Assembly: GCF_001050275.1 (NCBI RefSeq)
Contig: NZ_BBYA01000001.1
Location: forward strand, 62,001 to 126,000
DNA from: Leptolinea tardivitalis
GTDB lineage: Bacteria > Chloroflexota > Anaerolineae > Anaerolineales > Anaerolineaceae
DNA: 64,000 bases
Direction of reading: 5' to 3'
Each line of letters opens with the position of its first letter. Position 1 is the stretch's first letter. Positions 4,226 to 33,223 of the stretch are shown in pieces. The notes under the pieces were generated by a model. The model was given only the letters and a program-made list of their open reading frames with translations, searched no databases and was not told the DNA's origin. A program made the position numbers and the translations under genes.

Positions 4226-5521
<1,296 letters not shown>

Positions 5522-5582: not shown

Positions 5583-6113
5583 TCACTGGCTGTTTATAAC
5601 TGTCTTTTTAGAATTTATCTCATCCAATACTGCCAGAACGGTTTTGTTTTCCGGTATATCTGACATTGAATTTCCATAATGAATAAACCGGATGATGCCT
5701 TCTAGGTCAATGACGATGACAGCCGGCATACGTCCCAATTTCAGCAGATTGACCTCTTGTTGGTAAATATCTGCGATTTTTGATCCCGGATCGGCCAGTC
5801 CAATCATGGGCATTGCTTCTGATTCCCACAACCTGCGAAATGCGGCTGGTCCATCGGGCCCGATGATGATAATTTCAGCGTTTCTTTTTTGGAATTCTTG
5901 ATAATCAAGGCGCAACTGCGCCAGGTGCCGGCGGCAGAATGGTCAGACAAAACCTCGGTTGAGTACCAGAACAATGTTCTTATGGTCTCGAAAATTCCGC
6001 AATTTAATGGGCGTATTCCGGGTATCGATCAGCTCAAAATCAGGTGCCAGATCACCGATGGCAATTTCTTTATCATGAGTGGAGATTTCGACAGGTTTTA
6101 TTCGAATCGGCAT
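5583..6113 (-). CDS. Peroxiredoxin-like thioredoxin-fold protein, candidate selenoprotein (in-frame UGA at codon 57)
   Basis: From an ATG at 6113 with a very good ribosome site (AGGAGG) the frame encodes 176 residues, interrupted by one TGA at 5945-5943 (codon 57). The frame resumes without shift. Upstream it reads IAIGDLAPDFELIDTRN and NIVLVLNRGFV, and downstream PFCRRHLAQLRLDYQEF. This is the AhpC/TSA-type thioredoxin fold, with a nucleophile expected exactly at the TGA, so the motif would be U-P-F-C in place of C-x-x-C. The C-terminal half (ADPGSKIADIYQQEV, MPAVIVIDLEGIIRFIHYGN) is well preserved, which argues against decay. Two alternative small hairpins follow the UGA (5909-5922, and one formed about 6-27 bases after it), either of which might act as a SECIS. 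The alternatives are a sequencing error or a fresh nonsense mutation. No sel genes lie in the window. The role would be thiol-dependent peroxide or disulfide chemistry. Confidence 0.75.
5909..5922 (-). promoter_or_regulatory. Candidate bacterial SECIS hairpin
   Basis: On the minus strand GGCGC-AGTT-GCGCC forms a five-base-pair perfect stem with a four-base loop that carries GU. The loop G is 27 bases after the UGA, within the spacing range described for bacterial SECIS elements, and lies inside the coding sequence as bacterial SECIS do. The stem is short. A competing hairpin nearer the UGA (CTGC-GCC paired to GGC-GCAG around a GGCACCT loop) is also possible. Confidence 0.45.
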
Positions 6114-6131
6114 ATTTCTATTCCTCCTATG

Positions 6132-30078: not shown

Positions 30079-31200
30079 ATGCGTATTGCTTATGTCTCTT
30101 TGCACTGGCCTCGCACGAAAAACAGCGGTGTCGGTCGGAAAATCATTGACCAGATGGCAGCCTGGAGACAACATGGTCATACTGTTCAATTTTTCTCACA
30201 TCACAATGATGTGAATGATATTGAAGCGCTCGTTGATGGCACAAATATCATCTACCAGGCTCCAAAGGGAATAGTAGGACGGCCAATTCTTGAAATCAAT
30301 CGATGTCTGGCGGCATCCAGATTGGTCAATGCTCTGCGGGAGTATTCGCCTGACCTGATTTACCTGCGATGGAGCATGTATGTTTTCCCCTCCCATCGTA
30401 TGTTTCAGATCGCTCCGGTTGTGGTTGAAATCAATACAAACGATGTGACCCAGCATAAGATGCTTGGGCCGGTCCTTTCTACATATAACCGGTTAACCCG
30501 AGGAATTTATTATTCAAAGGCTTCCGGCCTGGTTTTTGTTTCAGGTGAATTAATTAAATCGAACGAATTTACTTCATTTTCATCTCCCAAGAAAGTCATA
30601 CCCAATGCTATAAATCTGTCAGAAAATCTTCCTCTGGAAGCACCTAAGAATGAACGCCCTCGACTTGGATTCATTGGCACACCGGATATTCCCTGGCAGG
30701 GTGTCGATAAACTGGTCCGGTTGGCTGAACTATGCCCGGAGTTGGATGTTGATGTAATTGGTTTTGATTCTCTGGAAGGTTGGACGAAATTACCACCCAA
30801 TCTGTATCTGCACGGCTATTTAAGTAAGAAAGAAGCCCGAGAAATTTTGGCCGGGGTCGATGTTGGTATGGGAACCCTGGCTCTTCATCGAAAAGCGATG
30901 AATGAGGCATCAGCCTTGAAAATTCGTGAATACCTGGCCTATGGGATTCCGATCATCTTACCGTATGAAGAGACTTCTCTAGTCGGTGTCAATCTTGATA
31001 CAATTCTGAGAATTCCAAATACAGAAGACAACATTGAAACGAGTTGGGAAAGTATTCGTGATTTTGCATTCTCAATGCGAGGAAAACGGGTAAAGCCCGA
31101 ACAGATCGCTCCTTTTGTTGGATCTGAATTCATTGAATCAGAACGGTTGAACTTCTTTATCAAATGTATTGATGGTTACAATAAAAGTAATGAAAAATAA
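30079..31200 (+). CDS. Glycosyltransferase (GT4-like, GT-B fold)
   Basis: A protein of 373 residues from the ATG at 30079. The N-terminal Rossmann half starts MRIAYVSLHWPRTKNSGVGRK, with the Gly-rich acceptor-side loop. The C-terminal half has PRLGFIGTPDIPWQGVDKLV, LHGYLSKKEAREILAGVDVGMG and the sugar-nucleotide site EASALKIREYLAYGIPIILP, with the acidic residue followed by the GIP loop as in GT4 enzymes. It should act at the cytoplasmic face on a lipid-linked glycan. It is the first gene of the large plus-strand run. A TTG 15 bases upstream is an alternative start; neither has a good ribosome site. Confidence 0.8.
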   Translation: MRIAYVSLHWPRTKNSGVGRKIIDQMAAWRQHGHTVQFFSHHNDVNDIEALVDGTNIIYQAPKGIVGRPILEINRCLAASRLVNALREYSPDLIYLRWSMYVFPSHRMFQIAPVVVEINTNDVTQHKMLGPVLSTYNRLTRGIYYSKASGLVFVSGELIKSNEFTSFSSPKKVIPNAINLSENLPLEAPKNERPRLGFIGTPDIPWQGVDKLVRLAELCPELDVDVIGFDSLEGWTKLPPNLYLHGYLSKKEAREILAGVDVGMGTLALHRKAMNEASALKIREYLAYGIPIILPYEETSLVGVNLDTILRIPNTEDNIETSWESIRDFAFSMRGKRVKPEQIAPFVGSEFIESERLNFFIKCIDGYNKSNEK

Positions 31201-33223
31201 CCAGATGAATTCCAAAGATGCAGGCTGTTTTTCTCTACAAAACGTAAATCTCGTTGTTTATATTTTTATTTCAATTTTCTTTTTCCTAGCGGCCTATGAT
31301 TTTTATCAGGGTTTTATTTTGATTGGAAATCCTCCATCACTGGCTTCAAAGAGGTTTGTGGTCTTTTGTATCGTTTCATTAATACCTCTAGCAGCCTGGG
31401 TTTATGGTTTAACACTGGCTTATCATGGCAATCTGGGGAGGAAACTGGAAAAGGTTGAAAAACAGGCCATTTCGCGAATTCCGTTTTATGGACGGGTCAT
31501 TCTGGCTATCCTTTCTCTTTTATTCCCAACAATCCTTTTCCTTTATTCACCATTTGGTAATTTTTCTTTCATTTACTGGCTGCGCCTTTTCACTTTACTT
31601 GGTTTTAGTGTCCTTGCTGCACTATTTCTTTTTAATGAGGATATAACCATCCAATGGCTACTCAAAGCGTCTGGAATGGTTCTTTTCTCCACGGTTATAT
31701 TTATTATCGGAGATTGGTTGACGGGTGTCTCGGATTACCCGTTTTCATTAGCCTGGTCTGAAGGAAATCGGTTCTGGGACTATTCCATTATGTTTGGAAT
31801 GTCTCGATATATCAATCCAAGTGGAAAGACGATTGTTCCATTTCTAGAAGCTGGCCGACAGTTGCTCTGGGCAATCCCGTTTATTTTCCCATCTATAGGG
31901 ATTTGGGGAATGCGGTTATGGAATGTAATAGTATGGGTGATTCCTCCCCTGGTGTTGGGCTTTATTACTGTATTCCAAAAATCGACATTCAAAAAAGAAT
32001 GGGTTTGGCAGATTGGATTTGCCCTCTGGCTTTTTGTATTCTTAAGCCAGGGTCCGATATATCCGCCTTTGATTATCTGTGCTATTCTTGTGGTCATTGG
32101 ACTAAAAAATAGAGGTATTCTGGTTCCTGCCTTGTTTATTGCCGTGGCATCTTATTATGCACGGATTTCCCGCTGGACATGGATGTATGCTCCGGGATTA
32201 TGGGCAGGATTGCAGGCTCTTCTCGAAATCCAAAATCCTTCCTTTATTAAAAATCGTTGGAGAGAGCTGATCCGGCCTGTTGTGCTGGGTCTCTCAGGTT
32301 TGGTAGGCGCCGAATTAGTAGCCCGAATGATTTCCATGTTCTCCAAAGGGCAGATAGCCACAGAAGGATCGGTAACTTCCGTTGTGGTTAGTTCATTCGA
32401 TTTTGCACAGCCAATGCTCTGGGACCGCCTGTTCCCAAACCCGACATATGCACCAGGAATTCTGCTTGGATACGTCTGGGTGGGCGGACCATTGTTGCTG
32501 TTTATGGCTTATATGATTATTAAGAGAATCTGGAAAACAAATTGGATGCAAAATGCATCATTGTTGATCGTTCTCGGAGCTTTTTCACTTATTGGAATTA
32601 TCATCAGCGTTAAGATAGGTGGAGGAAGTAATCTTCATAACCTGGATTTGCTATGGGTGACTCTCACTCTGATTGTGGGTTGGTTTTTTCGTAACTGGTT
32701 GGATGCTGGATTGCCGGGTTTGCGTGAGTCAAAAATCGTATTGGCTGTTACCTGTTTTGCTATTGTCATGCCAATGACTACGATGATCCAGTATGGAGAG
32801 CCTTTTTCGAAACCGGCAGATTACTTTGTTACAAGTTCCCTGGCAAAACTGCAGGCTGAAGTTGCTGCTGCTAAAACTAAAGGTGAGGTCTTGTTTATGG
32901 ACCAACGCCAGTTATTAACTTTTGGTTATGTCAAAGATGTTCCCCTGGTGGCAGAATATGAGAAGAAACTGGTAATGGATCAGGCCATGAGTGGCAATGC
33001 GGCTTATTTTGCGGAGTTCTACAAGGATCTACAAAATCACCGATTCTCCTTGATAGTCAGTGAACCCTTGCGTAAATCCATGGCCGATGAAGATATTCGG
33101 AATTTTGCCGAGGAAAATAACTCCTGGGTTTATTGGGTTTCCCGTCCTTTGCTAAAATACTATAAACCAAAAGTAACATATGATGAAGTTGGTGTTCAAT
33201 TGCTAATTCCGCGTGAGAATTGA
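31190..33223 (+). CDS. Polytopic membrane protein, GT-C-like, of the polysaccharide locus
   Basis: A protein of about 677 residues with many hydrophobic segments (about 13) and a soluble C-terminal part of about 130 residues with AEVAAAKTKGEVLFMDQRQ. The first external loop has SDYPFSLAWSEGNRFWDYSIMFG, with acidic residues placed as in GT-C transferases. The sequence family is not known by name; function as a lipid-sugar-dependent glycosyltransferase is inferred from layout. The start overlaps the end of the previous gene. ATG at 31190 and 31205 are both possible. Confidence 0.6.
   Translation: MKNNQMNSKDAGCFSLQNVNLVVYIFISIFFFLAAYDFYQGFILIGNPPSLASKRFVVFCIVSLIPLAAWVYGLTLAYHGNLGRKLEKVEKQAISRIPFYGRVILAILSLLFPTILFLYSPFGNFSFIYWLRLFTLLGFSVLAALFLFNEDITIQWLLKASGMVLFSTVIFIIGDWLTGVSDYPFSLAWSEGNRFWDYSIMFGMSRYINPSGKTIVPFLEAGRQLLWAIPFIFPSIGIWGMRLWNVIVWVIPPLVLGFITVFQKSTFKKEWVWQIGFALWLFVFLSQGPIYPPLIICAILVVIGLKNRGILVPALFIAVASYYARISRWTWMYAPGLWAGLQALLEIQNPSFIKNRWRELIRPVVLGLSGLVGAELVARMISMFSKGQIATEGSVTSVVVSSFDFAQPMLWDRLFPNPTYAPGILLGYVWVGGPLLLFMAYMIIKRIWKTNWMQNASLLIVLGAFSLIGIIISVKIGGGSNLHNLDLLWVTLTLIVGWFFRNWLDAGLPGLRESKIVLAVTCFAIVMPMTTMIQYGEPFSKPADYFVTSSLAKLQAEVAAAKTKGEVLFMDQRQLLTFGYVKDVPLVAEYEKKLVMDQAMSGNAAYFAEFYKDLQNHRFSLIVSEPLRKSMADEDIRNFAEENNSWVYWVSRPLLKYYKPKVTYDEVGVQLLIPREN

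Follow-up and report, generated by a model that had tools for sequence, protein, structure and literature searches.

A predicted UxxC peroxiredoxin-like selenoprotein gene of Leptolinea tardivitalis and its SECIS-type hairpin

The locus at 5583-6113

The window, that is the whole stretch of 64,000 nucleotides that was analysed, corresponds to G000:C1:62001-126000, where G000 is the L. tardivitalis genome (3.69 Mb in 15 contigs, 99.33% complete, 3.34% contaminated). Its minus strand carries, at 5583..6113, a predicted UxxC peroxiredoxin-like selenoprotein gene encoding 176 amino acids with selenocysteine (Sec) at residue 57. Direct reading of the minus strand gave 176 codons from the start ATG (6113-6111) to the terminal TGA (5585-5583), an AGGAGG ribosome-binding site 9 nt 5' of the ATG (6123..6128, minus strand), the in-frame UGA as codon 57 (5943..5945, minus strand) and the TGC of Cys60, the second residue of the UPFC motif (5934..5936, minus strand). 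The initial annotation had described exactly this, a single 176-codon frame with its sole internal TGA at codon 57 behind ATG 6113 and an AGGAGG site, and the motif that it gave, RGFV-U-PFC-RRH, was read letter for letter. It had also foreseen a truncated product of 110 residues in the case of no recoding, and the ORF list indeed contains a 110-amino-acid ORF from TTG 5915; reading UGA57 as Sec would thus correct a gene otherwise cut to 110 residues by plain stop-codon reading. The recoded protein matched the Pfam families PF00578 (AhpC-TSA; E 1.3e-20, residues 19-143, 74 bits against a cut-off of 26) and PF08534 (Redoxin; E 1.8e-16).

The neighbouring genes, assigned from the ORF list and Pfam, were: an alpha/beta hydrolase (PF12695; 6132..6971, minus strand), whose stop lies 18 nt before the ATG; a uracil-DNA glycosylase superfamily protein upstream (PF03167; 6925..7611, minus strand), overlapping the hydrolase; and a convergent enolase (4229..5521, plus strand). 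The order uracil-DNA glycosylase family protein, hydrolase, selenoprotein gene is common to the homologous loci L002 and L008, as judged by the similarity of the translations; the enolase adjoins the selenoprotein gene in L002 too, and lies two ORFs further on in L008. No tRNA was found in the window by ARAGORN. When the window was scanned for further frames that read through a TGA and lie outside long ORFs, three items came up, none of them convincing by eye, one being the read-through of the selenoprotein gene's own terminator.

The UGA codon among homologues and the Sec machinery

The search of 101 genomes (L. tardivitalis and 100 relatives) gave matches in 97. The loci compared comprise all 68 listed matches with E <=3.6e-15 plus 15 named loci spanning Chloroflexota, Deltaproteobacteria/Syntrophus and one Fusobacteria MAG, 83 in total and 80 distinct; weaker matches (E above 3.6e-15), some of them with TGA, stand outside this 80-locus count. 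L011, from the same-family genome G033, and L081, from Thermanaerothrix daxensis, were identical over the compared codons. Column 57 was TGA in 73 of the 80 distinct loci and TGC or TGT in the other seven, a ratio obtained from loci picked by their similarity to a Sec protein in related genomes, which is not a census. This comparison at the UGA column had been proposed by the initial annotation, and all 80 loci carried TGA or a cysteine codon. The UGA form was found in 50 of the 101 genomes searched, which represent Anaerolineaceae-like bacteria. At column 60, Cys was present in 78 of the 80 loci, the exceptions being Ala in L044 and Thr in L095; these two loci read C57-x-x-A60 and U57-x-x-T60, with the first redox residue kept and the second not.

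Two further subfamilies were distinguishable, mostly with Sec: L065-L073, with U-P-H-C after FNIGF, and L075-L080, with U-[ML]-Q-C after FVREY/FVREF and with the Cys form L076, and L074, beside them. Some members are second copies within one genome.

If the UGA were a true early stop, or the mark of a pseudogene, translation would end there and restart at TTG 5915, where the 110-amino-acid ORF does begin. This reading is very improbable, given that the same TGA occurs in 73 of the 80 loci with both sides conserved, as the initial annotation had noted for the single sequence, that the remaining in-frame stops fall towards the termini of the aligned stretches (at columns 168-173 in several rows and at column 13 in L016), and that the hairpin described below is conserved at synonymous sites. 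L030 has an extra stop within a stretch unaligned to the query, and the named loci L082 and L089 have one further stop each. A sequencing or assembly error that turned TGC or TGT into TGA is extremely improbable because the same codon recurs in many other assemblies: besides this gene, 72 distinct loci have it, and these come from 49 genomes other than G000 and from 11 additional named records (another three named records, duplicates or of identical sequence, are kept out of the 72).

The Sec machinery, which the initial annotation had suggested looking for in the same genome, was present in full: the profile search of G000 gave selA at 506 bits, selB at 348.5 bits and selD at 357.8 bits, and Rfam RF01852 gave a tRNA-Sec at 62.9 bits against a gathering score of 47, whose anticodon loop, aligned to RF01852, is CUUCAAA (anticodon UCA). 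This tRNA-Sec lies in L041, where ARAGORN found no tRNA. A genome-wide reassignment of UGA, for example to Trp, has a negligible probability in view of this UCA tRNA-Sec, of the terminal TGA shared by the selenoprotein gene and the upstream gene, and of the non-TGA state of column 57, which is Cys and not Trp in 7 of 7 loci. The selD gene has an in-frame TGA of its own (SSCAGUASKLN; L042:256-1626 (-), G000:C8:54148-55083), and the selenophosphate synthetase of G000 is itself a selenoprotein candidate with a CAGU motif.

Counted by hand over the 50 genomes with the UGA form, selA was above the cut-off in 46 (missing in G002, G012, G030 and G061, the last three with partial or split matches), selB in 46 (missing in G002, G008, G012 and G078) and selD in 49 (missing in G016), and a tRNA-Sec above 60 bits was found in 43 (missing in G008, G025, G027, G054, G061, G067, with 53.0 bits, and G073). 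The 60-bit line is our own, since the gathering score fails to separate: some genomes with a strong match have a second one of 47-50 bits, and matches in this range also turn up where selA is lacking. Among the loci taken, G075 and G088 are the only genomes represented solely by a Cys form; in both, selA had no match, selB and selD stayed below the cut-off, and tRNA-Sec matches did not exceed 48 bits. In G061, selA matches in two overlapping pieces (30365-30925 and 30904-31518, at G061:C6:30365-31518), due to a frameshift, an assembly error or decay. A reading of G061 as a genome of the Cys form whose Sec machinery has decayed was rejected, since its paralogue L078 has TGA.

The hairpin downstream of the UGA

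A putative bacterial SECIS hairpin, GGCGC-AGUU-GCGCC, lies at 5909..5922 (minus strand; loop 5917-5914) and was evaluated by synonymous constraint, pairing and a recoding control. The bSECIS model (PMC13188914, section 5) describes a loop of 3-9 nt with a G in its first two positions, a stem of 4-16 bp, a spacing of 16-37 nt between the UGA and the loop and an energy <= -7.5 kcal/mol; the hairpin has a 4-nt AGUU loop (G, then U), a 5-bp stem, a spacing of 25 nt and -8.4 kcal/mol. The hairpin of the initial annotation, GGCGC-AGTT-GCGCC, was therefore retained (5922-5909, conserved and fitting the bSECIS model), and its distance of "27 bases after the UGA" was corrected: the stem begins after 20 nt and the loop after 25 nt, 27 referring only to the G of the loop. 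Folding the stretch after the UGA, which had been recommended as a check, did not bear the hairpin out; the minimum-energy fold of 61 nt was a competing pairing and lacked significance (z -0.80). As this single-sequence fold did not single the hairpin out, the support for it comes from comparison. The same hairpin search after the terminal UGA of the gene and after the UGA of the upstream gene found nothing.

Synonymous fixation was high in the hairpin: CAG66 (64/64), TTG67 (65/69) and GCG65 (62/68) ranked 1, 2 and 4 among 119 columns, rank 3 being the codon of Cys60 (TGC in 67/72). When only the 65 columns whose residue has at least four codons were considered, the TTG of Leu67 and the GCG of Ala65 were the two most synonymously fixed. 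The median fixation was 0.52 over all 119 columns and 0.40 over these 65, and outside the hairpin stretch TTG makes up 20% of the Leu codons, GCG 25% of the Ala codons and CAG 59% of the Gln codons. TTG67 was present in 65 of the 73 Sec rows against none of the seven Cys rows (Fisher p 2e-6, a nominal value, the rows being related).

Pairing was scored on 60 chosen rows of the 72 distinct 45-nt Sec rows (the 12 left out being six rows with an upstream hairpin, five of the L075-L080 group, and L095). The stem paired in 98.3% of the cells, with double-sided changes in two pairs, against 17.5-65.8% in the slid controls. All five pairs were present in the same register in 58 of the 72 distinct Sec rows and in 0 of 7 Cys rows. 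In a register-free search without bulges (73 Sec rows, all different from one another over 54 nt), at least the threshold stability of -7.5 kcal/mol was reached by 55 of the 73 Sec rows, by 167 of 3,650 synonymous recodings and by one of the seven Cys rows (L044, at -12.2), 18 Sec rows falling short of it; the per-row recoding p was <=0.05 in 44 of 73. The loop was AGUU, AGUUG or AGUUA in 70 of the 73 Sec rows, and GGCU in L013 and GGUCA in L095; L017 showed no convincing hairpin in the no-bulge search. A SECIS covariance model gave 62.8 bits to this gene and nothing else above 16.3 bits in the genome (150 of 1,716 first-look candidates scored), and for that reason it leads to no other selenoproteins.

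Taken with the TGA/Cys alternation at column 57 and the Sec machinery, this conserved SECIS-type hairpin supports the selenoprotein reading of the initial annotation, and we consider it highly probable that UGA57 codes for selenocysteine. SelB charged with Sec-tRNA(UCA) would bind the AGUU-loop hairpin 25 nt downstream so that UGA57 is read as Sec, and the terminal UGA, which is followed by no such hairpin, would terminate translation.

The tree of the 80 rows, built with column 57 removed, contains three changes of Sec/Cys state. One concerns L008 (1468-1971), a syntenic orthologue from the same genus with TGC for TGA, nested among the sequences of the genus (99/92, with 98/76 for the fork that places it beside L002 and L003) and with no comparable hairpin in the register-free search (best, -2.3). 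As it sits inside the genus clade, has the same gene order and has no comparable hairpin, L008 probably represents a recent change from Sec to Cys. Its genome retains a Sec paralogue, L043.

In six of the 73 Sec rows the hairpin is shifted upstream by 9 nt, nearer the UGA, with a spacing of 16 instead of 25 nt and the AGUU loop kept. Five of them (L055, L057, L063, L091 and L093) have GCGCGC-AGUU(G/A)-GCGCGC, whose loop is 16 nt from the UGA, and group together in a single clade with support of 99/89; L027 has another stem at the same upstream place, GUGAGC-AGUUG-GCUCAC, and is drawn elsewhere in the tree. Forcing the six rows together lowered the log-likelihood by 4.30 (p-AU 0.449), so a single origin is not rejected. 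The sequences indicate that the hairpin moved at least once; the tree draws two moves, and the data are compatible with a single move, with two or with a reversal. On balance, the SECIS appears to be a movable module in this family, whose move would free the old codons and fix new ones (CRRHLAQLR versus CRAQLAR and CREQLAH); part of the active-site helix would then be set by the RNA signal and not by the enzyme. This shift is a fresher side result than the family membership of the gene. The set amounts to a natural experiment: in one species TGC replaces TGA, the hairpin is lacking and the syntenic gene is kept, and in others the hairpin lies elsewhere with its loop intact. What an RNA signal costs when it lies within the coding region of an active site can thereby be tested directly.

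Active site and relation to known families

The AlphaFold model (13 sequences, Cys standing for Sec) had a mean pLDDT of 89.8 and a pTM of 0.84, and places residue 57 after strand 46-51 and directly before helix 58-69. The product is predicted to be an oxidoreductase of the AhpC/TSA fold whose active site, UPFC (UxxC), lies where this helix begins; UPFC resembles the CPYC motif of glutaredoxins. We favour with fair confidence Sec57 as the nucleophile and Cys60 as the resolving residue, because none of the 80 loci has anything but Sec or Cys at position 57 and position 60 departs twice. Sec57 would be the attacking selenolate, Cys60 would resolve it as an intramolecular selenenylsulfide, and a thioredoxin-type reductant would reopen the latter, in the reduction of disulfides or peroxides.

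The same selenoprotein might instead follow peroxiredoxin chemistry, with Cys60 peroxidatic and Sec57 as its resolving partner, an alternative that we regard as unlikely. The closest folds in the PDB are the peroxiredoxins Bcp1, AhpC2 and AhpE (top TM to the query 0.80), and in the phmmer alignment to Mycobacterium tuberculosis AhpE Cys60 falls on the Cys of 'AFTGIC', which we take to be the catalytic residue, and Sec57 on its Thr. Against this stand the Ala and the Thr found at position 60 in L044 and L095, with position 57 invariably Sec or Cys; the Pro of the AhpE motif, which aligns with Arg53 (Arg in 71 of 80 loci); and Pro130, just before strand 131-135, kept in 73 of 80 loci at the place where thioredoxin folds carry their cis-Pro. 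Sec57 as nucleophile remains the preferred assignment.

Among the NCBIfam models, the best match was the SelL-related redox protein NF040769 (E 1.2e-17, residues 23-113), with 64.1 bits against a cut-off of 120 and only positions 3-94 of the 173 of the model covered. The matches to Prx-SUH (NF045827; E 5e-5, 22.8 bits against a cut-off of 298) and to PrxU (NF040737; E 0.0023, 17.6 bits against 270) were weak. Among the papers listed for Chloroflexi, Anaerolineae and Chloroflexota, none treated this gene at the level of titles and abstract openings, or of passages in the case of PMC1794560.

The classical peroxiredoxins AhpE and Bcp (TxxC; TxxU in the Sec form) have the fold and PF00578 in common with the predicted protein, but their PxxxTxxC/U motif is absent from it; UPFC is found here, with Arg53 at the position of the Pro and Sec57 at that of the Thr. 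The closest known system is the bacterial Prx-like thiol:disulfide oxidoreductase family ('Prx-like 1' in the GOS study; representative WP_010940744.1), which has the same PF00578 domain, UxxC and Cys homologues. Table 1 of PMC13188914 lists 'Prx-like thiol:disulfide oxidoreductase' with PF00578 and UxxC/UxxU as predicted with high confidence, and earlier surveys give 22 Prx-like proteins with UXXC replacing TXXU (PMC1088965), eight Prx-like selenoproteins (PMC1794560, Table 1) and 225 of 'Prx-like 1' (PMC2398784). The same UxxC in place of TxxU is present here (UPFC, with Cys60 in 78 of 80 loci), and the assignment of the gene as a new member of this known family, and not a new type, is well supported by the PF00578 domain and the UxxC motif on which the placement is based. 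Compared with the published family, the Sec form accounts for 73 of the 80 loci of the present set, which was picked by similarity to a Sec protein.
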